A DNA stretch of 35,205 nucleotides from a virus. Both the position numbers and the translations under genes were made by a program. The notes beneath the pieces were generated by a model, which was given only the letters and a program-made list of their open reading frames with translations, was not told the origin of the DNA and searched no databases. The DNA lies in the IMG/VR virus record IMGVR_UViG_3300036828_000534, positions 1 through 35,205 of that record. The stretch is one strand, 5' to 3'. Positions within the stretch are counted from its first letter, which is position 1. Every line of letters begins with the position of its first letter. Of this stretch, positions 2,154 through 20,145 are shown piece after piece.

Positions 2154-5100
2154 TTAGGTGATCGTCTTGGTGATGGCCGGGGAGATGATGTTGTCGAACT
2201 GGGCCGGGGTGACAACAAAGAAGCTCACCGAGTCACTGAAAGTACCAGAGATATCGTCCGTACTTTGCCTGGTGAAATGACCGTTGATCCAGGTGGCAGA
2301 ATCACTCATAGGATTGTTAGTGCCAAAGAACTCGAATGCACTGGGATTAGCTGTAACTTGACCTATAGCAGAGTCAATAAGAGAACCAGCGATATTGTCG
2401 GCGGTAGTCCGGTTGTAGAAGTTGGAGAATACGTTGACGATCGGGACGCCATCAGGGAACAGGTTCGGGTACTGCTTAAAGGCCAGGAACCACCAGCGCG
2501 GCACCGGGTTGCTCCACTGGGTGAACATGGGATCGGTGTAAATGTCCGGGGTGGTGTCGAAGACCGACAGGTTCGGCCCCTGCATGAAGGGCTTGGCGTC
2601 CACGTTCAGTTGGCCCTCGTAGATGGGCCGGATCTGCAGGGCCGAGATGTGCATGGACGGCCGGTAGCACGTCACCCGCCAGACCAGTTGCTGAGAGGGG
2701 ATGGGGAAGCGCACCACCCCGTTGGGGTTGTTGCGATTGTCCAGGCCCTGCCAGAAGGTGGTGCCGCCGTCCACCGAGAACTCCCAGATGATGCTCTCAT
2801 CGAAGACCGAGAGGGTATCGACCGAGATCACGTCGTTGGTCTTGCCGTCCTGGACCAGTTGCACGAACAGCGAGTGGGTCACGTCCTGGTTGGGCACCGA
2901 GCCGATGTCATAGACGGCGGTGAACTCGGTCACCGCTCCCTGGGCTCCCGAGGTCTGGGCCTGCCAGACCAGGCGGCCGGTGATGGTGTCCACCAGTTGC
3001 ACGAACAGCGGTGAGGTCAGCCCGCTGACGACCGTGTAGCGCACCGCCACCCAGGCCCGGCCACCCGTGGAGAGCAGCAACGGGGCGGAGCAAATGCCTC
3101 CGTAGGGAAGGGCCGCTTGGCCCGCATTGGAGATCTGCACCGGGGCGATGAAGGAGATCTTGTCGATGTAGTGGACTTCATTGAGGGCCGCACCCGTGAC
3201 GAAGGCCTGCAGATCCACCGTGGCCGCATTGGGCGGTGCTACCGCGGTGGTGATCACATCGGTCCATTGTCCGGCCACCTCAGCAACACTGGTTCCCGAC
3301 TGGTTTATGTTGGTACCAGCCGCGTTGTTCCACTGAATATATGCAAGAACATTTCTGGCTGTGACACCTGGCCGAAATCCACAATGGAAGGAGTATTGCT
3401 TGCCTGGTATCACCGGTATGCGAATGGTGGCATGCGAGATGGTCGCAAGCATGTTGCCTGCCGCCGTGGCCTGCATAGCCAGAGAATGGGTGCCATCCTC
3501 GGCTTGAGCAGTGGAGTTGGTGATGGCGCAGTTAAGCCCGGCCGTCCAATCTCCGAGGCTACCGCCCTCGAAGGATGAGTCCTCGGGTGACAGCACGTTC
3601 TGCAGGACGTAGGTCCCGAAGGTCTCCAGAGGCGGCTCGATGGGCGGGTTGATCACCCCTTGCACCGCGCCCCCGGCTCCCTGGGCGGCGGGAGGAGGCC
3701 CGCTCTGGCGGGAGAAGACGATGGAGTTGGTGCCGGTCAGGTAGGTGACCTGCAAGGGGGTCACGTCCCCCACCGCATGCCAGGTGCCGGTGTCGAGCCA
3801 GGTGGTGCTACTCAGGGCCTGGTTCCGCATGTCGTCGTCCAGGACCACCTGGACGGCGTCGGACTGGGTGGTGGCGAACTGCAGGCTGGTCACATCATGG
3901 GTGGAGATGAAGCTGACCGACTGGGCCACGTCGGGCAGGCTGGATATCAACGCCGGGTCGGTGGGAGTGGCCAGATCACCAGGGTTCTGCTGGAAGGTGT
4001 TGGACTGGATGAACATCTCATCCAGGAAATACTCGTAGTAGACATCGGTATCATTTTGAGCTAAGGCCGAGGTTCTCACCGCCTGGATCTCCTTGAATCC
4101 GCAGAAGAAGGCCACCTTGGAGGTGTAGGACACATCGGAGTTCTGGTAGGTGTGGAAGCTCGGATTGGCGAAGCGAGGCGCGCCCATGCCCTGGCGGATG
4201 TTGGCGAAGTTGTACAGCCAGGAGGCCGAGCCGATCTGCTGGGCGGTGCCGGGATCATTGGAGACCATGACCTGGGTAGGGCTCATCTGCAGGCTGGAGG
4301 CCGCCGCGCTGAGAGGGGCTCCCCCGGTCCCGGAGTTGATCCAGGGATTCTGACCCTGACCCATGGCGATGAGAGTGGCCGTGCCGGGATCCATGGTGCC
4401 CTGGTAGCCGGGAATGGACGCCACCGAGGTGGAGGCGGCCACCGTGGTGGCCGAGAAGGTCTGGACCATGGTCTGGGTGGGCAGGAAGCCCTCGTAGGGC
4501 TCGGGAGCCAGGTTGGTCATCTCGATCTTCCAGAACTTGGCCAGGATGGGCGGCACCTTCAGGTAGCCGGTGGTGAGCAGGTAGTCCCCGGCCACCGGGG
4601 TCCAGTACAGGTCCGGGTAGAAGGCGGGCTGGCCTCCCACCATGCCCGAGGGGTTGTCGGTCGAGATGAAGCTCGGGTTGAAGCGCAGGTAGGCGTTGCT
4701 GGTCTTGCCCTGGTCCTGAGAGACGAACTGCCCCTTGGAGCAATACGGCTGAGGACTGAACAAGAAGTCGTTGACGGTGGCAGGAGTGAGCGTCTCGTTC
4801 TTGACCACCATGTTGTGCAACATCATTCCCGAGGTGGCCACCACCGAGTTATCGTTGAAACCACCGATGCGGATGTTGGGATATTTGGTGCCGGAAAGCT
4901 GGATGTTGTCGAAGTAGTTGGTGCTGATAATGTCGCTGTTAAGCCCTATGTACGATCCCATGGGACCGAGCGTGCCGCTCAGATTCCCGCTGTAGGCCAC
5001 CACCCCATCGATGGTCATGGTCACCGAGGTGACCCCGTTGACGGTGATGACCACATGGTGCCAAACGTTGGCGGTGATGCCGGTGAGGCCGGTGGGGGAT

Positions 5101-7883
5101 CCCCAGGCGGTCCAGGAGGTAGTGGTGGCGATCCCCGAGGGCGTGCCGCGGGTATCGACGCGGGCCATGTAGCCCTTGCCGCTGACATCGCAGCCGAAGT
5201 AGAAGTTGGCCAGGCCACCGGTCGGGATCCACACGTCGTAGGCGTAGGTGGTCTGGGGTCCGATGCTGCGCGACACCACGGCATGGGCCGGGACCACGTA
5301 GCTGGGAGTCGGCCTGCCCTGGACGCTGCTCGACGCGAAGCCACTGCCAGCTTGCAGCTTCCACTGAGCCGAGGTGCTGCCCGTGTCGATCAGGCCCAGG
5401 GTCGGGCCGCGGGCCTGCTGGACGACATGGGAGACAGGATTGCCGCCCTCGAAGCTATAGGCGATGGTCCAGCCCTGAGCAGCGGAGTAACCGACCACCA
5501 GGCGGGTCATAGCCCCCAGGGGCAGAGCCGCGGCCAGGGAGACCACCGGGCTGCCGTCACTGGGGTTGATCTGGAAGGCCCCGTTGGTATAGGACACCTG
5601 GATGCCCAGCAGGTCGATGAGGGGCAGTACCCCGGTGGTGGGGTTCAGGTTGGCCAGAATCCCCAGCCCGGCCCACCAGTCCTGGGTGGGATCCCACTGC
5701 AGGCCCCAGTTGGGCACGTCGATGTAACCCGTGGTCCCGGTCCCGGTCGGGAACTGCAATCCGGTGGGGACGTGGACCACGTTGCCGGTGATACTGCTGG
5801 CCGGGTAGAACAACGGGGTGTCCTGAGCGGTGTGGCGCTGGGCCGCGGTGGGCGTGCTGTTGGACCAGTACAGGGTGGCGTGGACCCCGAGATGGGTGGG
5901 GTCGATGTAGAACCGATCCACAACTTGAGCGGCTCCAGTATTGGTCCGCACGTCCAGGTAGAAGTTGACCACGGCCGAGGCCAACGGCTGGGGAGCGCAG
6001 CGCCACTGCACCGGGTTGGTCTTGAGGGCGTTGGCCGGAGCCTCCATATACAGCGAGTAGCTGATGGGGCTGCCGATGATGTCCGAGCCCACCCCGATGA
6101 CCTGGGTGGCGGGCAGGTGGGGCGTGGGCAGGTCGTCGGGTCCCTCGATGGAGAACCCCACCTTGAACCGTCGTACCGCCAGGGAGTACGGCACCGGCAC
6201 CTGACGGGTGGCCCAGCCTCCATTGCTGGCCGGTTGGGTGGTGGTGTAGCTGTACACCGGGCCGTGACCATCTCTCCTCTGCAGCACCACCCGGACGCGC
6301 TGGGTGTTCACCGGCAGGATCTTGGTGGACAGATTGAACCAGTGATTCTGCCCGTAATGTTGAGGGTGAGTCTTAGAGGAGAGATAGTCCTCGTTATTGA
6401 CCAGTACTGCGGGAACAGAATCGATGATGTCATGCTCCAGCATCGAAACCCAGGTTCCGCTCGGGCTGTCGTAGTATTCAACCGAGATATGCTGAGGGAA
6501 ATGAGCCACCTCAAGAGAGACAGCATTGATATTGTGAAACGAGCCGAAACGGATCTCCAGGACCTCGCGGTAATCGTTGTCCTGAGGACGAGCGTCGGTG
6601 GCCCAAAAGCTCAGCGAGTCGCTGGATAGCTGCAGGTTGTTGATGTTCTGCTGGCCCAGCGCGGTCAGCAGGGTCCCCACGTCGAGGCCGTCGAAGGTGA
6701 GTTCCGACAGGCTGACCGACGTATTGACCGTGCCCCGCCCGGACAGGGCGTTGATGGCCATGACCCCATCCTGGGAGTACCGTCCCAGCAGGGCCATCCA
6801 CCACGGCAGCGGGGCATTGGTGGGCAGGTAGTCGGTGTAGGTCCCGTCCAGCCACACGATGCGCTGGGTGTCGGTGGAGGCCAGCACGTTCTGGGAGAAG
6901 TCCTGCAGGTAGCTGAGCGCCCCGGAGATGTCCTTGTTGTAGAACCACTGCTCGCCCTGGTAGCTGTTGAACGGCGGCACCGTGGGGGCCAGCACCGTCC
7001 CCGGCGTGGCGGTCCCATACGGCGCGGCCGCTCCGGTCGAGGTGACCGTGACCGCAGGCTCGATCTCCCAGTAGTTCGAGTCGGCCCAGGCCCCGGCCAC
7101 CGACACCGGGGTGTACACCTGCGGCCCCTGGGCGATCACCTGAGCGATGGCATCGGCTGGCTTCAGTTGTTCGATCACCTGTAGCACGTTGTACATCTCC
7201 GCCTGGGTGACCGGACGATGCGGCGAGATGATGAACTGCTTCTGCTGCAAGGCATTGGGCACATTGCCGGTGTAGCCCTCAAGCTGAGCGTAGGTGAAAG
7301 CCTCCAGACCGGAATAGGTATAGGACTGAAGCTGCAGATAGGTCATGGCCGTGTTGGCGGCGTAGACGAAGCTCTCGTAGATGTCGCAGGTCACCGACAG
7401 GATGGCCTCCGCGATCAACCGCATGCCCACCGGGGTAGGGCCGTAGGCGATGGCCCGGCCGAACTGGAACAGCCGTTGGCGGTAGCTGGCGTCGAGTTGG
7501 GCGGCGTCGCGCCAGTCACTGTTGGAGGCGGTGTCGGTGTAGGGGTCCATGGGCAACTGCTCGTCGGGGTCGCGGGTCATGCCGAACAGCGCCCCGTAGA
7601 AGCTGTCCAGGTCGTAGAAGTACGACGAGGACAGAGCCTGGCCCAGCCGGGACAACACCAGGCGCTTGCGTAGCTGCCCGGCTCCGGCATCGCCCAGCAG
7701 GGTCCGCACGAACCGGACCAGGTTGGAGTGCGGCGACAGGTTGTAGGTCTCGGGCGGGAAGTGCCGGAAGCGCTGATCGGTCTGGACCGGCATCAGGAGG
7801 GCCTGGGTGACCGTCTGCAGGCTCGCAGACCCCGGAGTGCCCGGTTGTAGCTGTAGCTGCCCTGGGGGCGTCAGATCGCTCAT
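2154..7883 (-). CDS. Giant distal tail/baseplate protein with lectin-like domains
   Basis: A 1909-residue structural protein that directly follows baseplate J, where gpI-like and fibre proteins usually sit. The N-terminal ~250 residues are helical and non-repetitive, probably the baseplate-docking part. The middle holds two concanavalin A/LamG-like stretches, roughly residues 700-850 and 850-1000; the second includes a WHHVVITVNG...TIDGVVAYSG signature. Residues ~1436-1590 form a CBM4/9-like module (FEGGSLGDW at the start, EVHYIDKISF at the end). The C-terminus is rich in Trp, Pro and Asn. Together these suggest binding of host surface glycans. The ATG at 7883 is preceded by a GAGAGG-type RBS and lies 10 nt after the previous stop. 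GC content dips around 3290-3480 and 6320-6560, hinting at mosaic origin. Baseplate wedge or receptor-binding protein is inferred; the domain folds are pattern-based. Confidence 0.75.
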   Translation of the reverse strand: MSDLTPPGQLQLQPGTPGSASLQTVTQALLMPVQTDQRFRHFPPETYNLSPHSNLVRFVRTLLGDAGAGQLRKRLVLSRLGQALSSSYFYDLDSFYGALFGMTRDPDEQLPMDPYTDTASNSDWRDAAQLDASYRQRLFQFGRAIAYGPTPVGMRLIAEAILSVTCDIYESFVYAANTAMTYLQLQSYTYSGLEAFTYAQLEGYTGNVPNALQQKQFIISPHRPVTQAEMYNVLQVIEQLKPADAIAQVIAQGPQVYTPVSVAGAWADSNYWEIEPAVTVTSTGAAAPYGTATPGTVLAPTVPPFNSYQGEQWFYNKDISGALSYLQDFSQNVLASTDTQRIVWLDGTYTDYLPTNAPLPWWMALLGRYSQDGVMAINALSGRGTVNTSVSLSELTFDGLDVGTLLTALGQQNINNLQLSSDSLSFWATDARPQDNDYREVLEIRFGSFHNINAVSLEVAHFPQHISVEYYDSPSGTWVSMLEHDIIDSVPAVLVNNEDYLSSKTHPQHYGQNHWFNLSTKILPVNTQRVRVVLQRRDGHGPVYSYTTTQPASNGGWATRQVPVPYSLAVRRFKVGFSIEGPDDLPTPHLPATQVIGVGSDIIGSPISYSLYMEAPANALKTNPVQWRCAPQPLASAVVNFYLDVRTNTGAAQVVDRFYIDPTHLGVHATLYWSNSTPTAAQRHTAQDTPLFYPASSITGNVVHVPTGLQFPTGTGTTGYIDVPNWGLQWDPTQDWWAGLGILANLNPTTGVLPLIDLLGIQVSYTNGAFQINPSDGSPVVSLAAALPLGAMTRLVVGYSAAQGWTIAYSFEGGNPVSHVVQQARGPTLGLIDTGSTSAQWKLQAGSGFASSSVQGRPTPSYVVPAHAVVSRSIGPQTTYAYDVWIPTGGLANFYFGCDVSGKGYMARVDTRGTPSGIATTTSWTAWGSPTGLTGITANVWHHVVITVNGVTSVTMTIDGVVAYSGNLSGTLGPMGSYIGLNSDIISTNYFDNIQLSGTKYPNIRIGGFNDNSVVATSGMMLHNMVVKNETLTPATVNDFLFSPQPYCSKGQFVSQDQGKTSNAYLRFNPSFISTDNPSGMVGGQPAFYPDLYWTPVAGDYLLTTGYLKVPPILAKFWKIEMTNLAPEPYEGFLPTQTMVQTFSATTVAASTSVASIPGYQGTMDPGTATLIAMGQGQNPWINSGTGGAPLSAAASSLQMSPTQVMVSNDPGTAQQIGSASWLYNFANIRQGMGAPRFANPSFHTYQNSDVSYTSKVAFFCGFKEIQAVRTSALAQNDTDVYYEYFLDEMFIQSNTFQQNPGDLATPTDPALISSLPDVAQSVSFISTHDVTSLQFATTQSDAVQVVLDDDMRNQALSSTTWLDTGTWHAVGDVTPLQVTYLTGTNSIVFSRQSGPPPAAQGAGGAVQGVINPPIEPPLETFGTYVLQNVLSPEDSSFEGGSLGDWTAGLNCAITNSTAQAEDGTHSLAMQATAAGNMLATISHATIRIPVIPGKQYSFHCGFRPGVTARNVLAYIQWNNAAGTNINQSGTSVAEVAGQWTDVITTAVAPPNAATVDLQAFVTGAALNEVHYIDKISFIAPVQISNAGQAALPYGGICSAPLLLSTGGRAWVAVRYTVVSGLTSPLFVQLVDTITGRLVWQAQTSGAQGAVTEFTAVYDIGSVPNQDVTHSLFVQLVQDGKTNDVISVDTLSVFDESIIWEFSVDGGTTFWQGLDNRNNPNGVVRFPIPSQQLVWRVTCYRPSMHISALQIRPIYEGQLNVDAKPFMQGPNLSVFDTTPDIYTDPMFTQWSNPVPRWWFLAFKQYPNLFPDGVPIVNVFSNFYNRTTADNIAGSLIDSAIGQVTANPSAFEFFGTNNPMSDSATWINGHFTRQSTDDISGTFSDSVSFFVVTPAQFDNIISPAITKTIT

Positions 7884-10529: not shown

Positions 10530-11437
10530 CAGCCCGTCCCCAAATAGTGAGCTTCAAAATAGGTCTGATCAGGACTACCGGCTTGTCCGGCCACCGCCGT
10601 ACTGGCCGCCACCCTGGTGTAATAGGTGTCGGGCAAGCTGGTGATGCGCTGTGTCCCTGTAGATATACCCTTGAGAGCATAAGTACTGGAGGCATGGTAA
10701 AGGCCATCTATATACACATTGGACGGGCTAGTACGCCAGATCCCCGGCTGCACCCATTGCCCGGTGGCACTGGGCGAAATCCCAGCCTGGAATGTCATCT
10801 GCCACATGCCCGTGATCGGCGGAGAGAAGAGCCCGGTACTGGCGCTATAGATCCCATAATCGTCATAGGTCACAGAATCCATGGTCAGGGTAAGCCACGC
10901 ACCCGCAGACGCCGTCCACCCGGCCGTCTTGTAGTAACGGCAATGCAGCACGTCTCTGGGTCGCTTCCAGGCACCACCGTTCACACCGTGCTTGGCTATC
11001 CACACATCCCCCAAATGATCGACTGTCGTCTGCAGGGTGCTACCGGTGGTGACCGGTGGTGGTGGAAAGGCCACCCAGCCAGGATTGACCTTGAGGATCC
11101 CAAGCTGCTGAAGGCCCTGGCCCAGGGAATAGGCGTCAGAGGCCACCGGCAGCAGAGGGGCCTGGCGCGACAGGAAGGTCCAGGTTCCCAGGGACTGGTC
11201 CACGATCCATTGCTCGCCCACCTGCGGGTAGGCTCCTGAGCCCACCACCGTGGACACCCCGATCTGGCGGTACTTGCCGAAGGAGTCGATGGTGGTGGCG
11301 ATGCCCATGGGATCGGTGTTGTTCTGACCGACCTTGGAGCGATCGATGGCGGTGACGATCACCACGTAGCGGGTGATCTGAGCGGCGCTGTTGGCCGTGG
11401 CGGCGGCCTGAGGGTTGCGGGAGTGCGGAGAGGTCAT
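10529..11437 (-). CDS. Spike-like baseplate protein with C1q-like tip
   Basis: A 302-residue protein in the slot where gpV/gp5-like puncturing or spike proteins are found. Residues ~20-95 look like a small OB/SH3-like barrel (RYVVIVTAIDRS, then YPQVGEQWIVDQ and GTWTFLSRQ), a pattern common in phage hub and spike proteins. Residues ~165-302 resemble a C1q/TNF-like jelly roll: YDDYGIYSASTGLFSPPITG followed by MWQMTFQAGIS and a C-terminal YFEAHYLG strand. C1q domains usually trimerise, which suits a threefold spike or short fibre. It overlaps the hub gene by ATGA. Role (central spike versus short tail fibre) is inferred; both domain calls rest on sequence pattern only. Confidence 0.6.
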   Translation of the reverse strand: MTSPHSRNPQAAATANSAAQITRYVVIVTAIDRSKVGQNNTDPMGIATTIDSFGKYRQIGVSTVVGSGAYPQVGEQWIVDQSLGTWTFLSRQAPLLPVASDAYSLGQGLQQLGILKVNPGWVAFPPPPVTTGSTLQTTVDHLGDVWIAKHGVNGGAWKRPRDVLHCRYYKTAGWTASAGAWLTLTMDSVTYDDYGIYSASTGLFSPPITGMWQMTFQAGISPSATGQWVQPGIWRTSPSNVYIDGLYHASSTYALKGISTGTQRITSLPDTYYTRVAASTAVAGQAGSPDQTYFEAHYLGTG

Positions 11438-13863
11438 ACCAGTGCCTTCAACCCTCCCTTAGCCATTCCGTAGAGCCCGGAGTGGTCGGTGGCGGACGGG
11501 GCGATCACGTTGACATCGGTCTTGAACCCACCGCCCTGGGTCAGGTTGAAGGAGTGGGTCACCCCGGTGACGTAGCACTGGAAGCCGAACTGCTGGAGGC
11601 GCAGCAGCATGCCGGGATAAAGCTCGGGCATGAAGGTGATGGGGATCACCGTGTTGAACTGGCTGGCCCAGTTCATCTGAAATAGGTAGAGGGCGTACCA
11701 GAACTCGGCCAGGTGACCGACGATGGTCTGCATGGGGGTGAAGTTGGGTCGCACCCCGAAGCGGTTCAACAGAGCCGAGATCAGTTGCGAGCCCGACCCG
11801 TTGGGGGCCAGATCGGCTTCGCTCACATTGAGGAGAGCCTTGAGGACATCCGGCGTCTGCACGGTGGCGATGCCCATGGTCTGAATCATGTTGCCTATCG
11901 CTATCGGGCCGCCCGGAGCAGAGCCGAAGACGCTGGGGGCGTAGGTCCCGGCCGTGAACTGGTGGGTGACCAAGCTCTCATCGGACCAGACCACAGTGAA
12001 GTCCTGTAGCTCGACATTGGTGACATCCATGATCCCGGCCGTCTGGTACACCCCGAAATAGTCCGGGAACCAACTGATGAAATCGCCATTGGGAGCCGCG
12101 CACCAAGACCGCATGGAAGCCTTGGCCATCATGTCGATGAAAGGCAGGATGGGTGAGTCGTTCATCAGGGCGCGTGGTCCGGCCAGGACTCCCGACAGCG
12201 GGTCATAACCCTGACCGAACCAGTCCCATTCGGTGATTAGCTGCTGCGAGGCAGTAGTGCCAGTGCCCCCGGTGGCTCCGGCCGCAGTGCTGCCGACAGG
12301 AACCGTGGTGGTACCAGCCTTGGCCGCCGCATCCGAAGGACGACCGAACCCTACCGAATCGGTGCGATAATCGGTGATGTGGAGGTTTTGGCCGGTCTGG
12401 GGAGCCTCGGCCATTTGATTGTTGCCGACCCACATGGTGACATGACCGGGGCCATCCGATCGCATCTCGTAAAAGATCAGATCACCGGGTTCAAGCTGAG
12501 CCACGGTGAGATTGGGAATGTGCATGGCGGTGTATTGCGCTTCGGAAGTGCGGGGGATCTCGATCTTCCCGCCATGAAGCCACGCTTGTGAGGTCAATCC
12601 CGAGCAGTCATAGCCATCAGGGCCGACACCAGCAGTGCGATAAGGGATAGGAGGAGTGTGATTGCAAAGAGTGGTGGCATAGTTAGCGGCGTTGAGACCG
12701 GCCACCGAAACCACCTCGATCTGCCCGGTACTCGACCCGGTGTAGGCGTTGTCACCACCGGTCGCGGAGCCCGCCCCCGTGGTGGCGGCCGTGCCGGAGA
12801 CCATCCCGAACTTCTGAGCCGCCTCCACCTTGGGATCCACCCAGGCAATCGAGACGTAGTCACCTTCGGTGAGTCCCAGTGAGGACATCAGGTACGAGTC
12901 CATGCAGACCTGAGGCTGAGGGGGCTTGGCCACCTGCTTAGGTCCCCAGCCCACGGTGTAGACGATGGCGGCGGCATTGGAGTTGGGGTTGGCCACAACA
13001 ATCTTGCGCTTGGCCAGCCAGTCTGTGACTTTGACCTTGTCGATGCCGGGGGTGTTCTTGTTGCCATCCGGGGGCAGCCGGAAGCCCCATTGCATGGCGA
13101 TCCAAAAATGACCCTTCTCGGGCTGGATGCCGGTGGTGAGCGGGGCCGCGCTGGTCACCGCTCCCATAGTGACGGGAAGCTCGACCCCCTTGGGCACATC
13201 GTTCCGGGTGGCCCCCAGAGTCTTGATGGGATTGGTGGAATCAGTGGTATTGCCATTGGCAGCAGTGGTAGATCCCTGAGTATTATTTCCACCCAACGCG
13301 TCATAGTAGCTGCCGAACTGACCTTCAACAGCGTTGTACAAAGCCGCGATCTTGTTCATCCAGTCCGGCGGTATCTGCCCGATGTGAATCTCGGAGTTCT
13401 TCAGTCCACACACCTGGGTGAGAATCGCTTCCATCTTTTGAGAGATGCCACCGTCGGCCCCGTTGGCGGGATCCCCCATGGCTCCGTTGTGCATCAGAAG
13501 GTCCATGGCCGCGATGGTGCCGGGATCCCAGTAGTGGTACAGGAGTCGCTTGTTGGCGCAGGAGCCGGTGATGGTGATGGTCCGCTGCCAGGCCGTCACG
13601 AAGGGCACCACGTTGAGGTAGCCAGTCATGACCAGCATCTCGCGCACCCGCTTCATGTAGATCACGAAGCGGTCGTTGGGGGAGAAGGCCCGGTCGTACT
13701 TACGGCGCTTGTTGAGCAGGCCCAGGCTCATGGTGTGCAGGCCGTTCTCACGTAGCTGCACCTGACCCTGAGTGATGTCCTCGGACACATCGATGGTGCC
13801 CGAAACCGTGTTAACCTCACATCTGATGCTAGGCGAGTAGGCGAAGATACCCGTTCTCACCAC
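11434..13863 (-). CDS. Baseplate hub fused to NlpC/P60 peptidase
   Basis: An 809-residue tail-tip protein. The N-terminal part (1-200; SEDITQGQVQLRENGLHTMSL) and the C-terminal part (540-809) resemble gpD/gp27-type hub halves. Between them lie a possible RlpA-like double-psi barrel at ~275-345 (VVANPNSNAAAIVYTVGWGP, then SSLGLTEGDYVSIAWV) and a clear NlpC/P60 domain at ~385-510. That domain has catalytic Cys420 in GYDCSGLTSQAW, His474 in GPGHVTMWVGN, and an EPGDLIFYE turn. NlpC/P60 enzymes cut peptide stems of peptidoglycan, so this is probably the virion-associated lysin used during DNA injection. The start is one of two adjacent GTG codons (13863 or 13860); the SD-like AAGGGGG is unusually close. 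The initiation region abuts the plus-strand HNH gene. Confidence 0.83.
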   Translation of the reverse strand: MVRTGIFAYSPSIRCEVNTVSGTIDVSEDITQGQVQLRENGLHTMSLGLLNKRRKYDRAFSPNDRFVIYMKRVREMLVMTGYLNVVPFVTAWQRTITITGSCANKRLLYHYWDPGTIAAMDLLMHNGAMGDPANGADGGISQKMEAILTQVCGLKNSEIHIGQIPPDWMNKIAALYNAVEGQFGSYYDALGGNNTQGSTTAANGNTTDSTNPIKTLGATRNDVPKGVELPVTMGAVTSAAPLTTGIQPEKGHFWIAMQWGFRLPPDGNKNTPGIDKVKVTDWLAKRKIVVANPNSNAAAIVYTVGWGPKQVAKPPQPQVCMDSYLMSSLGLTEGDYVSIAWVDPKVEAAQKFGMVSGTAATTGAGSATGGDNAYTGSSTGQIEVVSVAGLNAANYATTLCNHTPPIPYRTAGVGPDGYDCSGLTSQAWLHGGKIEIPRTSEAQYTAMHIPNLTVAQLEPGDLIFYEMRSDGPGHVTMWVGNNQMAEAPQTGQNLHITDYRTDSVGFGRPSDAAAKAGTTTVPVGSTAAGATGGTGTTASQQLITEWDWFGQGYDPLSGVLAGPRALMNDSPILPFIDMMAKASMRSWCAAPNGDFISWFPDYFGVYQTAGIMDVTNVELQDFTVVWSDESLVTHQFTAGTYAPSVFGSAPGGPIAIGNMIQTMGIATVQTPDVLKALLNVSEADLAPNGSGSQLISALLNRFGVRPNFTPMQTIVGHLAEFWYALYLFQMNWASQFNTVIPITFMPELYPGMLLRLQQFGFQCYVTGVTHSFNLTQGGGFKTDVNVIAPSATDHSGLYGMAKGGLKALV

Positions 13864-13870
13864 CCCCTTC

Positions 13871-13879
13871 GATGGGTAT
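13871..13879 (+). repeat. Left arm of 9-bp inverted repeat flanking HNH
   Basis: GATGGGTAT at 13871-13879 is the exact inverted complement of ATACCCATC at 14347-14355. The two arms bracket the HNH open frame almost exactly: the upstream ATG lies inside the left arm, and the right arm starts 2 nt after the stop. Nine base pairs is short enough to arise by chance, so a link to insertion of the element is only a suggestion. Confidence 0.35.
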
Positions 13880-13892
13880 AGCGTGTGAAGCC

Positions 13893-14345
13893 ATGGTTGC
13901 GCGCTACCGCTATATTCAGCGTCCTGGGCATCCCTTGGCTGGTCCCAGCGGTAAGTTCCCTCTGCATCGGCTCATCCTGTGGGACAAGATCGGTCCAGGA
14001 TCTCATCCCTGTCACTGGTGCGGAATAACGGTGACCTGGATGCCTGGACCAACCGTTCGAGGAGCATTGACCGCCGATCACGTCGATGGTGATAGCAGGA
14101 ACAATGATCCTGACAACTTGGTCCCCGCTTGTCATTCCTGCAACCACAGTCGATGGCATGGCATTCGACCTGGCGAACTCTTCGTCACAAACAAAACTTC
14201 TGGTCTTCGTACCCGAGCCGAGGAACGATCCTGCGAACAATGCGGAGCTACGTTCCTCTTTCCATTGACAAAGAGATCTGATCCTACACGCGGAAGATTC
14301 TGTTCTTCGTCTTGTCGAGCCAAGTGGTATTTCAAGAGACGATGA
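13893..14345 (+). CDS. HNH homing-type endonuclease
   Basis: The only gene on the plus strand, inserted between two tail genes. It encodes about 150 residues starting MVARYRYIQRPGHPL; an in-frame ATG at 13872 would add seven residues. I prefer 13893 because known actinophage HNH proteins begin at this point. Residues 38-86 hold the HNH/zinc core: HPCHWCG, ALTADHVDGD, NNDPDNLVPACHSCNHSR. The C-terminus carries a second Cys cluster (CEQCGATF and FCSSSCRAKW), probably a zinc ribbon for DNA binding. Free-standing HNH genes of this type are usually mobile and cut an allele lacking them. The 3' half has lower GC than the flanking tail genes, consistent with separate origin. It is transcribed antisense to the operon, so it presumably has its own promoter, which I cannot identify. 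Confidence 0.9.
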   Translation: MVARYRYIQRPGHPLAGPSGKFPLHRLILWDKIGPGSHPCHWCGITVTWMPGPTVRGALTADHVDGDSRNNDPDNLVPACHSCNHSRWHGIRPGELFVTNKTSGLRTRAEERSCEQCGATFLFPLTKRSDPTRGRFCSSSCRAKWYFKRR

Positions 14346-14346
14346 G

Positions 14347-14355
14347 ATACCCATC
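14347..14355 (+). repeat. Right arm of 9-bp inverted repeat flanking HNH
   Basis: ATACCCATC here pairs with GATGGGTAT at 13871-13879. The arm overlaps the last bases of the stop codon of the minus-strand tail gene ending at 14354. If the HNH unit moved as a block, this would be its right border; chance is equally possible for a 9-bp match. Confidence 0.35.
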
Positions 14356-15034
14356 AGGTGGCCTCTCCCTTGCCGGGATGACCGGGGATCGAGGTACTCA
14401 CCGGAGAGGGTGGTGGAGTGGGACCGCCGCTTACATCAGTGGGCAAGGAGATAGGAAGACCCTTGGAGTCATCGGTGATGTTGTCGTAGAGCTTGGCCTC
14501 GATTGACACCGCCGGACCTCCCTGCAGGCTCTCGAAGGGATAGAACTGCGAGTTGGCCCCTCCGATGCTTTTAGGCTTAGAGGCAATAGACCCAGCCGCG
14601 AACCCTATGACCCCCCTGATGGTCGGTTGACATCCCCGAAAGGTCAGGTTCATCGTATAGGCCAGATCTTGAACCGTATTAGTACGATCGAATCCTTCAG
14701 TGAGAAACCCGTAGAAATCGAATCCCCTGGGTCCTCTCATCCGCATGGGAAAGTTAGCTCCATTCGAAATGTACTTGGCATAGCTGATACACCAGTTGAC
14801 AAACCTCTCGCGGTCCTCCCAGGTGGTCTGAACAATGCTGATGCCCACCGTACTCATGAAATACTGACGCACATAGATGGCCTTGGCCCCGAAGCCTCCA
14901 TAACGCGGTCCTCCCTGGCCGGAGTCCTGGGTGGAGACGATGTTGGGGCCGAAGAGAACACGGGTGCATTTGACCGCGTAGGAGGTAGCTGCGCTGCCCG
15001 ATCCCCATGATAGCGTCATGTTCTCGCCCGCCAT
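14354..15034 (-). CDS. Baseplate/tail structural protein, unassigned
   Basis: A 226-residue protein beginning MAGENMTLSWGSGSAATSYAV. No enzyme motif is visible. The sequence is mixed alpha/beta with several aromatic patches (YGGFGAKAIYVRQYFM, RGPRGFDFYGFL), and its C-terminal ~35 residues form a Pro/Ser/Gly-rich tail (GGPTPPPSPVS). It sits between the tail lysins and the hub in a row of overlapping tail genes, so a baseplate or tail-tip structural role is likely by context. GC is lower than in neighbours over about 14570-14880. I do not recognise a named family. Before the HNH insertion it was probably directly adjacent to the hub gene. Confidence 0.6.
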   Translation of the reverse strand: MAGENMTLSWGSGSAATSYAVKCTRVLFGPNIVSTQDSGQGGPRYGGFGAKAIYVRQYFMSTVGISIVQTTWEDRERFVNWCISYAKYISNGANFPMRMRGPRGFDFYGFLTEGFDRTNTVQDLAYTMNLTFRGCQPTIRGVIGFAAGSIASKPKSIGGANSQFYPFESLQGGPAVSIEAKLYDNITDDSKGLPISLPTDVSGGPTPPPSPVSTSIPGHPGKGEAT

Positions 15035-15246
15035 TAGGGCACTCCTCCAGATGGTCCCAGGAATCCCGACAGCATCTCTTCTCGATCAGCATCGGTCATA
15101 ACCACCGCTAGTCCATAGGTGGTTAGTCCGAACCCACTGTCCTTAAACTCATGGACGATTGGGCGTTGTGTAGTTGGTGGAGCAGGCATGGAAATCGGTG
15201 TGTCTGCGATCCAGTAGTTGCTGGCGTTGCTGGCGTTCGTAGTCAT
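15034..15246 (-). CDS. Small hypothetical tail-operon protein
   Basis: A 70-residue product (MTTNASNASNYWIADTPISM...). Its stop shares TAATG with the next gene, and its start overlaps the previous stop in ATGA, so it is almost certainly translated. The first half is Asn/Ser/Pro-rich and extended. The second half (VHEFKDSGFGLTTYGLAVVM followed by acidic TDADREEML) could form a short strand-helix unit. Lying in a baseplate gene row, it may be a small structural or assembly factor. No family recognised. Confidence 0.55.
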   Translation of the reverse strand: MTTNASNASNYWIADTPISMPAPPTTQRPIVHEFKDSGFGLTTYGLAVVMTDADREEMLSGFLGPSGGVP

Positions 15247-16475
15247 GATGCCGTCGCCTTCGCGGCGAGGATCTGTCCATAGACGCTCATGATGTCCTTG
15301 GGATAGGTGGTGTCAGCGGCCCAGTTGCCACCCAGTCCGGCCCAGGTGGTGACGTTCTTGCCGCCCCAGGTAGGAGCGACCGTGGGCTCGGCCAGAGCCG
15401 CCGAGTTGCCCTTGACCACCCGGTAGAGAAGCTGGATCTGGGCACGTACCCCTGCCTGAGCGCTGGAGAAGTCCAGGCCCGAGGGCGCGCTCACCGGGTG
15501 GCCGATCCCGGCGTAGTTGTTGAGGCTGGTGTCGTCGTTGGTGAAGTAGCCGGTCTCCCAGATGGCCTGGGCGAAGGCCACATCGCCGCGCACGTTCTGG
15601 GCCTTGCCCTCGGAGAGGTACCAGCCGATGACGTTCTGGATGGTGTCGGTGAGCTTGGGCGGCTGACCCCGGCTGCCCCAGAAGCTCATGATCTGACCAG
15701 CGGTGGCCGTGGAGGGACCCAGGATGGTCATGTTGGGATCGGCGGACTTGGCCGGGTCCCCACCGCCCGCTGGAGGGGTCCCAGAGCCCCCTGTATTGTC
15801 CTGTGCGGGCTGCTGAGCGGCTCCGCCGAAGGCACTATTCAAATAGCCGCCCAGATTGTTGGCGTAGTTCTGCTGGGCCAGGAACTGCTCCACGTCGGAG
15901 GTGTGCAGTTGCCCGTTGTACTTGTTCACACCGTCGTAGCCCAGCCCGTTGGAGAGGCGCTGGATGTAGGCATCGGTGGCCACCTTGGTCAGCGAGCCGC
16001 CTGTGAGGTCACTGTCCACGAACAGGGTGAGTTGCCAGTCGGGGGCGATGTTGACATTCTCGTAGTCAATGGCCATACCCGAGGTCGAGGTGTAGTCCTT
16101 GAGATAGACCATGAAATCGAAGCCGCGATTGGGGTAGACAAAGCGGACTGGTTGGGACGAAGAGAGGGTGGGATGATCGATGGGCGTAATGGTCTGATTG
16201 GCTTGCATGTTCGTGATGGCCAGTATGCGGTTGAGGAACTGCTCCTGCTCGATATAGCCGCCCTTGCCGAAGGTCCCGGTAACCACCAGGTCGCTCATCT
16301 CCACCCCGAAGATCTGGATGACCATGCCGCCCAAGGTGGGGGTCTCGGAGGTCTTGACGGTGTAGGAGAGCGAGACACTGGTCGGGTTCAGCCGCATGGG
16401 AACGCCGTTCAAGGAGGCGTTCATCACCCCGGACAGGGATCGGTTCAGGAAGCTCTCGCGGGCGTAGGAGGACAT
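15243..16475 (-). CDS. Tail lysin: shared tail domain plus glucosaminidase-like domain
   Basis: A 410-residue two-part protein. Residues 1-215 are a virion domain about 80% identical to the same region of the next gene upstream (both begin MSSYARESFLNR). Then comes a Gly/Pro/Ala linker (220-245), then a C-terminal domain resembling GH73 / FlgJ-type N-acetylglucosaminidases: RGDVAFAQAIWETGYF with candidate catalytic Glu307, LNNYAGIG, and repeated Trp. GH73 enzymes cleave the glycan strand of peptidoglycan. I chose ATG 16475 over the GTG one codon earlier because it restores the same N-terminus as the paralog and gives a TGATG junction. Its place after the tape measure suggests a tail-tip location. 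The enzymatic class is reasonably supported; the shared N-terminal domain is not a family I can name. Confidence 0.78.
   Translation of the reverse strand: MSSYARESFLNRSLSGVMNASLNGVPMRLNPTSVSLSYTVKTSETPTLGGMVIQIFGVEMSDLVVTGTFGKGGYIEQEQFLNRILAITNMQANQTITPIDHPTLSSSQPVRFVYPNRGFDFMVYLKDYTSTSGMAIDYENVNIAPDWQLTLFVDSDLTGGSLTKVATDAYIQRLSNGLGYDGVNKYNGQLHTSDVEQFLAQQNYANNLGGYLNSAFGGAAQQPAQDNTGGSGTPPAGGGDPAKSADPNMTILGPSTATAGQIMSFWGSRGQPPKLTDTIQNVIGWYLSEGKAQNVRGDVAFAQAIWETGYFTNDDTSLNNYAGIGHPVSAPSGLDFSSAQAGVRAQIQLLYRVVKGNSAALAEPTVAPTWGGKNVTTWAGLGGNWAADTTYPKDIMSVYGQILAAKATAS
16084..16133 (-). repeat. 50-bp exact direct repeat, copy 1
   Basis: This block is identical over 50 bases to 17298-17347, 1214 bp away, and lies at equivalent positions in the two paralogous lysin genes. 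It encodes the end of the VRFVYPNRGFDFMVYLKDYTST segment. Flanking parts of the genes differ more, including at silent sites, so this is either a recently converted patch or the best-conserved remnant of a tandem duplication. Confidence 0.9.
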
Positions 16476-17668
16476 CACTTCACCAGCTTCAAGATGTCAG
16501 GCATCTGGGCCTTGCGGAGATCCCCTGGGCAGTAGATGTGACCACCCCAGTCGGAGCCACCCTCGCCGTGCCAGGCGAACCCACCATCCCCCGGCTTGGC
16601 CGACAGCCGCTTGGGTATCCCGTAGGAGGTCACCGCCCACTGGTAGATCCCGGCCACCGCCTTGACCTGGGCGTCGGTGAGGGGGTCGGTGTTCATCCCC
16701 TCGGTCTCGACCCCCAGGTAGGTATCGTTGGCGGCCACGGCATGCCAGGCCTGGTTGGCCCCATCCACGTATTGCTCGACGGTCCCGGTCTTGGCCACCC
16801 AGAAATGGGCCGAGACGGCTCCCGCGCCGGGAGTGTTGAAGTGGTTGTACTGGCTGTTGTCGCCCTGGCAGACGTGCAGGACCAGGCCCACATGGGCGGA
16901 CATGGCCCCGCCGTGGTTGACCACCGGCATCCACTTGGCCCCCGAGTACTGGCCCTGGCCGGTGCCTCCGGTGGCCGGGGTGCCCGGCGCTGTGGTCCCG
17001 TCGGTGGAGGTGGTGCTGGGCGGGACCTGGACGGGATTGCCGAAGCCCGCCTGCAGGTAGCCGCCGAGATTGTTGGCGTAGTTCTGGGCGGCCAGGAACT
17101 TCTCGACATCAGCGGTGGTGAGTTGCCCGTTGTACTTGTTGATGCCGTCATACCCCAAACCATTGGAGAGACGCTGGATGTAAGCGTCAGTCACGACCTT
17201 GGTCAAAGACCCACCGGTATTATCGTTGTCAACAAAGAATGTTAACTGCCAATCAGGAGCGATATTAGTATTCTCATAGTCGATAGCCATCCCGGCAGTC
17301 GAGGTGTAGTCCTTGAGATAGACCATGAAATCGAAGCCGCGATTGGGATAGACAAAGCGAACTGGACCTCCAGCGGTGGAGAAGCTCTGGTTGGCCTGAT
17401 AGCCAGCCAGAGCCAACATCCGGTTCAAGAACGTCAGTTGCTCGACGTAGCCACCCACCCCGAAAGTGCCGGTGATGATGAGATCACTCATCTCCACTCC
17501 GAAGATCTGGATCACCATGCCACCGAGCGTGGGGGTCTCGGAAGTCTTCACCACGTAAGAAAGCTCCACTGAGGTGGGATTTAGCCGCATAGGAATGCCA
17601 TTGAGAGAGGCATTCATAACGCCGGATAGATTCCGGTTAAGGAAGCTCTCGCGGGCGTAAGAGGACAT
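16475..17668 (-). CDS. Tail lysin: shared tail domain plus Amidase_2 domain
   Basis: A 397-residue paralog of the following gene. Residues 1-212 are the shared virion domain, 213-243 a Thr/Gly/Pro linker, and 244-397 an N-acetylmuramoyl-L-alanine amidase of the T7 lysozyme/PGRP fold (Amidase_2). Visible features are GLVLHVCQGDN with zinc ligand His265, AHFWVAKTGTVEQYV, LGVETEG, and the C-terminal WGGHIYCPGD with Cys380 and His367 or His377 as remaining ligands. This enzyme class cuts the bond between glycan and peptide stem. It is coupled by TAATG to the tape measure gene and by TGATG to its paralog. Because the tail domain is retained, it is more likely virion-borne than a free endolysin. 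Confidence 0.82.
   Translation of the reverse strand: MSSYARESFLNRNLSGVMNASLNGIPMRLNPTSVELSYVVKTSETPTLGGMVIQIFGVEMSDLIITGTFGVGGYVEQLTFLNRMLALAGYQANQSFSTAGGPVRFVYPNRGFDFMVYLKDYTSTAGMAIDYENTNIAPDWQLTFFVDNDNTGGSLTKVVTDAYIQRLSNGLGYDGINKYNGQLTTADVEKFLAAQNYANNLGGYLQAGFGNPVQVPPSTTSTDGTTAPGTPATGGTGQGQYSGAKWMPVVNHGGAMSAHVGLVLHVCQGDNSQYNHFNTPGAGAVSAHFWVAKTGTVEQYVDGANQAWHAVAANDTYLGVETEGMNTDPLTDAQVKAVAGIYQWAVTSYGIPKRLSAKPGDGGFAWHGEGGSDWGGHIYCPGDLRKAQMPDILKLVK
17298..17347 (-). repeat. 50-bp exact direct repeat, copy 2
   Basis: Second copy of the 50-base block found at 16084-16133, in the amidase-type paralog. The offset between copies is 1214 bp, about one gene length, as expected for tandem gene duplication. 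Confidence 0.9.
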
Positions 17669-20145
17669 TATTTCCCGGTGTAGTTAGTCGGAGCGCTACC
17701 GGCCATGCTGTCGGGATTAACCTGCCCGAGCGGGGCTACCAGGCTGGTGGCACTGGAGTTGCTGATGCTCTGCCCGTTGGCGGTGATGGTGAACCACTGC
17801 TGGAGTTGCGGGCTAGCCGAGATCTGCACCTGGGTGATGGCCTTGCCGGTGGCAGCCACCCCGGTCTTGAGCCTGCCGGTGAGATCCTTGCCCTTGAGAG
17901 CCTGGTTGGAGGAGGGAGCGGCCGACGCCGCCGCCCTGGCAGCTTCATCGCCAATGGTGCCACCGAACTGGGAGCCCGTTGTCTCCCCGGCCACGTTCTG
18001 GCCATTGTTACTGCCCTGGGCAATCTCCACCCCGCCCTGGGCCGCCTGATCGGCGTAGTTGTTGATCAGAGTTTTGAAATCGACTGTCTTCATGCCTTCA
18101 TTGGTAAACACCTTGTACAGCATCTTCTGGGCCGCGCTGCTCTTGAGCATCTGTTGGATGACAGGAGAGTTCTGTCCGGCGTTTGCACCGCCGAAGCCGA
18201 TCTGCTGCAGGTACTGCCGACGCAGCTTCTCTGCTCCACTGGACCCGGTGATGGTGCCGATATCAACCCTGACCCCACCAGGGAGGCCAGTGCCCTTGGC
18301 CGCCGCTCCCAAAGCCTTCGTACTCCCGGCCTGAGCCTGTTGACCAGCAGGAACCGGACCAGCCATGGTCGCCGCATTCTTGCTGGTGGCCGCCAAGGCC
18401 TTCTGCTGAGCCGTGCCCAGAGGCCCGGCCGGGGTCGGGGCCTGAAGACCATTCTGGGCGTAGTAACCGATGAAGGCCTGAGCCACCTGCAGAGGGTTCA
18501 TCTGACTGGTGTCGATCCCGGCAGCTTGCAAGATCGATTGGATGCCCTGAACATTGGGCAGTTTACCCAATAGATTGGTAGCTAATCCTTGCAGTTGGGC
18601 TGGATCTACCTGGCCATTGGCACCGACCTGAAACTTACCAGATTTCATCTGCTGTCGTAAGTCATCTATGGCTGGTCCACCACCAGCCTGACTCAGAAAC
18701 TGATCAATGTTCTGATTAACAGCCTTAACGCCCCAGGTGGGATCAGTGGCCATCCTCTGAACCACCTGATTAAAGTTCATCCCTTGCTCCGAGGCAATCT
18801 CATATAGCTGGGTATTGCCGGTTACACCACTGAAGTTCATGCCCTGGAACTGACGACCCAGATTGGCCTGGAACTGGCTGACGGCTGTGGACACTCCCAG
18901 GGTCCCGGCTCCGCCCCCCACGTTCTGAGTCACCCCCTGGTAGGTCTGGATGAAGCCCTGGCGCACCTGCTCGGCGTTCTGGGCAGTGTCCTTGGCCGCA
19001 GCCGATACCGCCTTGAGGGACTTCTCCAGGTTGGTGAAGTTCTCGTAGCCGCTCTGGGCCTGGACGGTGATGGCGGCCAGGGACTGGGCCACGCTCATGC
19101 CCATGGAGTTGAAGCTCGACACCATCATGTTGAGAGCGCCGTTGCGCTCCTGACCGCGCATGCCCAACTGGGTGGCTCCCATGAAGGCCTCCTGAGCCTG
19201 CCCGGAACCGAAGCTGAACATATTGCGGAGCTTGAAAGCCTCGCTGGAGATGCGCTGACCGAACTGGGAGACGTTAGAGCCGCCCAGAATGGCCTGGTAC
19301 TGGGCGTTCTGCGCCCGCTGGTTCTGGATCATTTTAGCGCCCTCATACCCGGCCAGTCCCACCGCTGCTGCACCTCCGGTGATAGCCCCGGCGACTCCCA
19401 ACCCGGCCATAGCACCCTCAGGAATCAAGGACGTGGCAAGCTGACCAATACCGCCTATCCCTTCTCCGGCCACCGCCCGGCCCACCACTCCCTGCAAGGC
19501 ACTGCCGAACCGTTCGCCGCGTTGCAACTTGGGCACATCGCCTTCGTCAACCTTCTCGGATCTGACGTTGCCATCGGCATCGCGGATCAGTTGGTGAGTC
19601 TCCATCTTCTTGGTGTTGTCGTTGTAATAGCTCTCCAGGCGAGGACCGAAGATCCCCGAGCCCGAGGTGGAGATGGCCCGAGCCGCTCGGGTACGCAAGT
19701 TGCCCATGCTCATGGCTCGGGTGGGAAGGGCACCCGGCTGACCTCGCTTACTGCTCGGATCGTCCTCCTCGGTATATCCCATAGCCGTGCCAGGCGCGGC
19801 AAACCTGGCCGTGATGGTGGGCACCTTGCCTTTGCCGGTGGTATGGGTGGTGCCACCCACGCCCATGGGTCCCCACAGGCCACCGAACATGGTCCCACCC
19901 TGAGTGGCCTTGCCGGTCATCTGGGCCAGGAACTGGTTGGTCTGCTGCTGCTGGGTGGCCAGGTTCTGGATGTAACCTTCAAAACCCCGGAGCCCGGCAG
20001 CCACCCCGGCGGCGATGGAACTGGGCAGATCTGAGCCACCACCACCGGGCGATGGCATAGCCCGAGCTTGATCACCTCTGATGTTGGAGTCGGGACCACC
20101 CGTGAAAGGTCCAGGGGACACGGGGCCGACGTAGGGATCGCTCAT
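17668..20145 (-). CDS. Tail tape measure protein
   Basis: An 825-residue protein following the frameshifting chaperones, the defining position of a tape measure, whose length sets tail length. At about 1.5 angstrom per residue it would give a tail of roughly 120 nm; this is an estimate. The N-terminal ~110 residues are Gly/Pro-rich with a QQQQTNQFL segment. A hydrophobic Gly/Ala stretch at ~245-275 (GLGVAGAITGGAAAVGLAGY) could span a membrane, as often seen in tape measures. After it come long Gln/Ala/Ser-rich helices (AQSLAAITVQAQSGYENFTN, SLKAVSAAAKDTAQNAEQV). No peptidase or transglycosylase motif is visible; those functions seem moved to the next two genes. The start overlaps the chaperone stop (ATGA). 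Confidence 0.9.
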   Translation of the reverse strand: MSDPYVGPVSPGPFTGGPDSNIRGDQARAMPSPGGGGSDLPSSIAAGVAAGLRGFEGYIQNLATQQQQTNQFLAQMTGKATQGGTMFGGLWGPMGVGGTTHTTGKGKVPTITARFAAPGTAMGYTEEDDPSSKRGQPGALPTRAMSMGNLRTRAARAISTSGSGIFGPRLESYYNDNTKKMETHQLIRDADGNVRSEKVDEGDVPKLQRGERFGSALQGVVGRAVAGEGIGGIGQLATSLIPEGAMAGLGVAGAITGGAAAVGLAGYEGAKMIQNQRAQNAQYQAILGGSNVSQFGQRISSEAFKLRNMFSFGSGQAQEAFMGATQLGMRGQERNGALNMMVSSFNSMGMSVAQSLAAITVQAQSGYENFTNLEKSLKAVSAAAKDTAQNAEQVRQGFIQTYQGVTQNVGGGAGTLGVSTAVSQFQANLGRQFQGMNFSGVTGNTQLYEIASEQGMNFNQVVQRMATDPTWGVKAVNQNIDQFLSQAGGGPAIDDLRQQMKSGKFQVGANGQVDPAQLQGLATNLLGKLPNVQGIQSILQAAGIDTSQMNPLQVAQAFIGYYAQNGLQAPTPAGPLGTAQQKALAATSKNAATMAGPVPAGQQAQAGSTKALGAAAKGTGLPGGVRVDIGTITGSSGAEKLRRQYLQQIGFGGANAGQNSPVIQQMLKSSAAQKMLYKVFTNEGMKTVDFKTLINNYADQAAQGGVEIAQGSNNGQNVAGETTGSQFGGTIGDEAARAAASAAPSSNQALKGKDLTGRLKTGVAATGKAITQVQISASPQLQQWFTITANGQSISNSSATSLVAPLGQVNPDSMAGSAPTNYTGK

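Follow-up and report, generated by a model that had tools for sequence, protein, structure and literature searches.

Tandem predicted tail lysins of a contractile-tailed phage, candidate baseplate ring proteins with a shared anchor domain and two different enzyme domains

The window, as we call the whole stretch of DNA analysed (35,205 nucleotides), is a 35.2-kb record of a contractile-tailed phage, with recognisable genes for the tail sheath, the baseplate and the baseplate wedge. On its minus strand, a chain of genes runs from a tape-measure gene (17668-20145) through the amidase copy (16475-17668, 397 aa) and the glucosaminidase copy (15243-16475, 410 aa counted from the ATG, with a GTG one codon further upstream) of a tandem pair to a 70-aa ORF (15034-15246), a 226-aa ORF (14354-15034) and the gene of a baseplate hub protein with an NlpC/P60 domain (11434-13863). 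The stop and start codons of the tape-measure and amidase genes overlap, as do those of the amidase and glucosaminidase genes, suggesting that translation of the genes in the chain is probably coupled. The tape-measure gene, directly upstream of the pair, has no family match of its own and was assigned from its position, its length and its synteny with the annotated E3 gp116. The 70-aa ORF, a small conserved tail ORF, has orthologues in all near relatives, and a small ORF is found at the corresponding place in E3, Stormageddon and others as well. The hub protein matches NLPC_P60 (2.9e-17) and phrog_2810 (1.7e-96) and is homologous to the E3 gp119 'baseplate protein'. It is the third predicted wall-cutting enzyme at the locus.

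The 226-aa protein, next in the operon after the 70-aa ORF, might be another tube-fold ring protein. Its profile resemblance to the N-terminal domain of the pair is weak and non-significant, and we rejected it as a third paralogue. Between the 226-aa and hub genes, a small gene on the opposite strand (13872-14345, plus) encodes an HNH-type endonuclease (HNH 0.00039, zf-FCS 0.00013, both slightly short of the Pfam cut-offs). This gene was not found in the near relatives, in which the 226-aa and hub genes abut, and looks like a private homing-type insertion. Elsewhere in the window, a 1909-aa tail protein (2154-7883, minus) contains DUF7297, along with stretches that weakly resemble Laminin_G_3 and CBM_4_9, and is a possible receptor-binding protein.

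The two genes of the pair end in different enzyme domains. The original prediction assigned an Amidase_2 domain to one and a glucosaminidase-like domain to the other, each after a Gly/Pro/Thr linker, and both assignments hold. The N-acetylmuramoyl-L-alanine amidase domain (Amidase_2, 16478-16957) has an E-value of 2.7e-17 and 63.7 bits against a Pfam cut-off of 26, and the Glucosaminidase domain (PF01832, GH73 type, 15246-15749) has an E-value of 1.2e-8 and 36.1 bits against a cut-off of 30.2. The two domains bear no relation to each other. The amidase domain also matches AmpD (1j3g, 2e-5) in an alignment that covers the Glu region. From family knowledge and this alignment, we assign H265, H367 and C380 as putative zinc ligands and the Glu in YLGVETEG as the putative catalytic residue. 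These three residues are kept in all orthologues, as is the glucosaminidase motif AFAQAIWETGYF...LNNYAGIG. Either C-terminal domain could have turned out to lack a catalytic fold, an outcome that was named beforehand as counting against the prediction; both have catalytic folds and the key motifs. The linkers are indeed Gly/Pro/Thr-rich. That of the amidase copy lies at approximately 16958-17053, where the AlphaFold2 (AF2) model has low confidence and no secondary structure, and the Gly/Pro-rich linker of the glucosaminidase copy lies at approximately 15750-15845.

Both genes thus encode peptidoglycan-hydrolase domains that score above curated cut-offs with conserved motifs, are joined to a structural-type domain and are encoded in the tail module, and the products are probably virion-associated (tail) lysins. 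It is very improbable that both are lysis enzymes (endolysins) that came to lie in the tail operon by chance. The closest matches to the amidase domain are Streptomyces phage endolysins (about 40%), which would fit such an origin, but the enzymes are joined to a structural-type domain that about 21 phages have in bare form in their tail operons, and the genes sit between the tape-measure and hub genes.

Ahead of the linkers, the two copies share an N-terminal domain, which we refer to as the anchor (amidase copy, codons 1-205, 17054-17668; glucosaminidase copy, 15846-16475). The expectation of about 210 N-terminal residues with some 80% identity was borne out, as the shared part is 83% identical in amino acids and 74% in nucleotides over 209 codons. 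With the linker included (231 codons), the values are 79% and 72%. We aligned the copies at the DNA level and found silent divergence across the shared part near saturation (NG86 dS about 1.7; 54 of the 92 fourfold sites differ). Therefore, the copies are old and do not represent a recent duplicate. The GC3 of the anchors is 0.69 in the amidase copy and 0.87 in the glucosaminidase copy, and that of both enzyme domains is ~0.87-0.89.

Both anchors match PHROG 2786 (amidase copy 1.4e-14, glucosaminidase copy 8.3e-14), a family annotated as of unknown function. A solved relative was not found by sequence; the PDB sequences, scanned with hmmsearch, yielded no more than a weak match to an 80alpha lower fibre (E 0.0036). 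AF2 models of the two proteins have mean pLDDT values of 49.9 (first) and 44.5 (second). The anchor core of the first model, at about 55-77, consists of two long strands, one helix and more strands. The best Foldseek E-values, both from these low-confidence models, are 4.1e-5 (first) and 7.9e-6 (second). The matches are mostly to tail-tube-fold proteins, namely baseplate chains of phi812, Milano, 7-7-1, AFP, PVC and phiCD508; the T4 and cyanophage A-1(L) tubes and Dit are matched as well. Among predicted viral proteins, minor tail proteins of Finch and Tonenili and CIS tube proteins were found. Given the low model confidence, we regard the fold matches as supportive, not decisive.

The anchor genes lie between the tape measure and the hub. 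In solved contractile machines, hexameric rings occupy the corresponding place, as seen for the diffocin 'tube tail' CD1367 (PMC11329794), the A-1(L) tube initiator gp18 (PMC10966104) and the Deep-Blue Afp7-like hub (PMC11406892). Together with the fold matches, this position suggests that the anchor is most likely a tube initiator, which would form the ring linking tube and hub. From fold and position, it likely forms a ring of six.

The relatives of the anchor provided insights into the history of the pair. The amidase-then-glucosaminidase order is kept in five near lineages (the window, L003, L004, L006/7/8 and L005, the L005 contig beginning inside the amidase, of which it has only the end). 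A tblastn search with the anchor reached E3, Stormageddon, Phrappuccino, ScoobyDoobyDoo, Phabba, Tonenili, Pupper, Skog and the Eggerthella phage LE2-3. E3, Stormageddon, Phrappuccino and ScoobyDoobyDoo each have a single bare anchor immediately behind the tape-measure gene, and in LE2-3 it follows an unnamed gene in the tape-measure place; about 16 further contigs likewise have a single bare anchor. Counting named phages and IMG/VR contigs together, about 21 distinct distant anchors have no second copy within 3 kb to the left or right (the L033 contig stops 241 bases past its anchor, where a twin is possible), and their ORFs stop 0-99 residues beyond the anchor. Three of the distant single-copy anchors were scanned against Pfam, and none gave a domain. 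The search for single-copy phages proposed with the original prediction was thus productive. The accompanying search for other C-terminal partners was not, as scans of viral sequences found no other enzyme on the anchor. No anchor relatives were found in bacterial genomes with the patterns used.

Since the pair is present in all five near lineages and the distant single-copy anchors are bare, we place the duplication and both enzyme gains on the branch to the window clade, in its ancestor. The history first proposed, tandem duplication followed by replacement of one C-terminal domain, is therefore upheld in part. The tandem paralogues and single-copy relatives agree with it, but the bare distant anchors make both enzymes gains, and replacement of one enzyme domain by the other is possible. 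There is a nearly even chance that two separate enzyme gains took place on already duplicated bare anchors, instead of a fused gene being duplicated and one of its domains replaced. Every distant anchor is bare, as such gains would have it, and in L026/L027 a glucosaminidase domain 53% identical to that of the window is found at the N-terminus of another baseplate protein, the one in the hub's place, suggesting that such enzymes move between baseplate genes. On the other hand, the linkers are alike within a genome (QQTTTQTT and QQTTTTTP in L006), as if anchor and linker were duplicated jointly, an argument weakened by the fact that conversion could yield like linkers too. The glucosaminidase-hub fusion of L026 (5260-7602) lies downstream of a protein that bears LysM and occupies the place of the tube initiator. 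By Pfam, the E3 hub has SLT_3 and NlpC/P60 domains, whereas the window hub has NlpC/P60 alone. This difference suggests that glycan cutting may have moved from the hub to the ring.

The similarity of the two anchors is likely due in part to past segmental conversion. In a comparison of the window with L006, clusters of sites that unite the copies by genome lie at codons 102-133 and 177-202, and clusters of sites that unite them by gene lie at codons 61-101 and 137-145 (p=0.0002 in the runs test and also for the longest within-genome run, by permutation). Among the other five genome pairs, window/L003 gave 0.023 and four were not significant. Per-codon likelihood differences over nine copies are also clustered (p=5e-5 in 25-codon windows, p=0.003 by cusum). 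In AU tests, the topology of one segment tree was rejected by the other segment and vice versa (0.002 and 7.6e-5), but the segments were chosen post hoc, and the permutation tests consequently bear the weight. The most informative character is a discrete one: a one-codon insertion (GYDG/GYDS) and an LGG motif (NLGGYL) are present in both copies of the window and L003, and all available copies of L004, L005 and L006 have GY-x and PQGYL instead. When only third codon positions are used, the clustering is not significant (p=0.2 and 0.54). The earlier suggestion of gene conversion is thus backed by the mosaic signal and the shared indel but not by the third positions. The latter result would fit an absence of conversion, with the within-genome likeness at codons ~174-206 arising from parallel change under selection for matched surfaces, since the mosaic signal lies in first and second codon positions. 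We consider this unlikely. Parallel indels would be needed to place the insertion and LGG in both copies of the window and L003 and in neither of L004 and L006, and silent sites near saturation have little power.

A 50-bp exact match between the copies had also been reported and was confirmed at 17298-17347, with its twin at 16084-16133 (anchor codons 108-124). A match of this length is improbable under codon shuffling (p=0.0002). We considered whether the run marks a recent conversion in the window and ruled this out, as silent conservation of the tract extends throughout the clade, also between paralogues of different phages. Over seven copies of the window/L003/L004/L005 clade, the mean silent difference at codons 107-124 is 0.155 per comparison versus 0.40 elsewhere, and the window amidase copy and the L003 glucosaminidase copy have 38 bp in common within the tract. 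No RNA fold is evident in it (z -0.5). Nucleotide-level constraint or repeated conversion could explain the tract.

Combining these data, we think it rather probable that the pair are paralogous baseplate ring proteins of the tube-initiator type that came to carry two enzymes after duplication, with conversion keeping their anchors alike. The phage would be related to the actinophage E3 and Bxz1-Myrna lineages, and six copies of the N-terminal tail-tube-fold domain would join the tube to a trimeric hub. In the ancestor of the clade, a single bare gene would have been duplicated in tandem, and the copies would have gained an amidase and an N-acetylglucosaminidase on flexible linkers. Occasional conversion within the anchor, as far as the start of the linker, would keep the two anchors similar. 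The amidase would cleave the link that ties the stem peptide to the glycan, and the N-acetylglucosaminidase would cut the glycan strand itself. Peptides would be cut by the NlpC/P60 domain of the hub, giving a tip with three different cutting activities. The wall would be opened as the tube is driven through, following sheath contraction. The role as tube initiator is proposed on the grounds of fold and position, and the presence of the proteins in the virion, their activities and the time at which they act are predictions.

How the two paralogues would be arranged is a separate question. They may co-assemble into one mixed hexameric tube-initiator ring that displays both enzymes, with conversion keeping their contacts interchangeable, an arrangement we regard as rather doubtful. 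A variant of the same explanation, to which we give a better though still less than even chance, has two stacked homohexameric rings, one with the amidase and one with the glucosaminidase. Tube-fold proteins naturally stack, and T4 gp54 and gp48 sit one above the other. In all lineages, the glucosaminidase copies have about 5-7 extra residues in the loop after the helix at 74-92, and a fixed 'AGYQ' versus '.xMQ' difference separates the copies; both features suggest distinct positions. Against separate rings, the homogenisation of the anchors by segments and their 83% identity suggest nearly interchangeable surfaces.

The enzymes and their tail setting follow known kinds, those of virion-associated lysins. 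E3 gp117, Stormageddon gp44 and their counterparts in Bxz1-Myrna-type actinophages (PHROG 2786) have a homologous anchor after the tape measure and the same gene order downstream. Unlike the window, they have one copy without an enzyme, and the E3 hub combines SLT_3 with NlpC/P60. Tube initiators of the Afp7, A-1(L) gp18 and XkdP types have the tail-tube fold predicted for the anchor and a place between tube and hub, and can have an extra C-terminal domain, such as the LysM in L026. Neither a catalytic domain nor a tandem pair occurs in the cases compared. The diffocin CD1368/CD1367 system also has two wall-cutting activities in a contractile baseplate, with the tube tail as a hexameric ring under the tube (PMC11329794). 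There, however, the transglycosylase and endopeptidase are both in one trimeric hub-hydrolase, CD1368. In the window, a predicted amidase and a predicted glucosaminidase are carried by two candidate ring-protein paralogues in addition to the NlpC/P60 hub. Similarly, the A-1(L) baseplate has two wall-cutting activities (PMC10966104), in a single hub protein instead of paired ring paralogues. In the open-licence papers searched, we did not find two different lysins borne by the copies of a duplicated ring protein of the tube-initiator type.

Our analysis gives PHROG 2786 a likely role. Dual-activity tail lysins are known, and in the structures compared both activities lie in one hub protein; here they would be spread over a duplicated ring protein. 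The bare single-copy relatives represent a natural 'before' state, and the hub-borne glucosaminidase found elsewhere is a sign of domain movement between baseplate genes. Duplication, domain gain and concerted evolution can be studied together at this tractable tail locus, and the tail tip would probably carry two kinds of wall cutters on paired copies.
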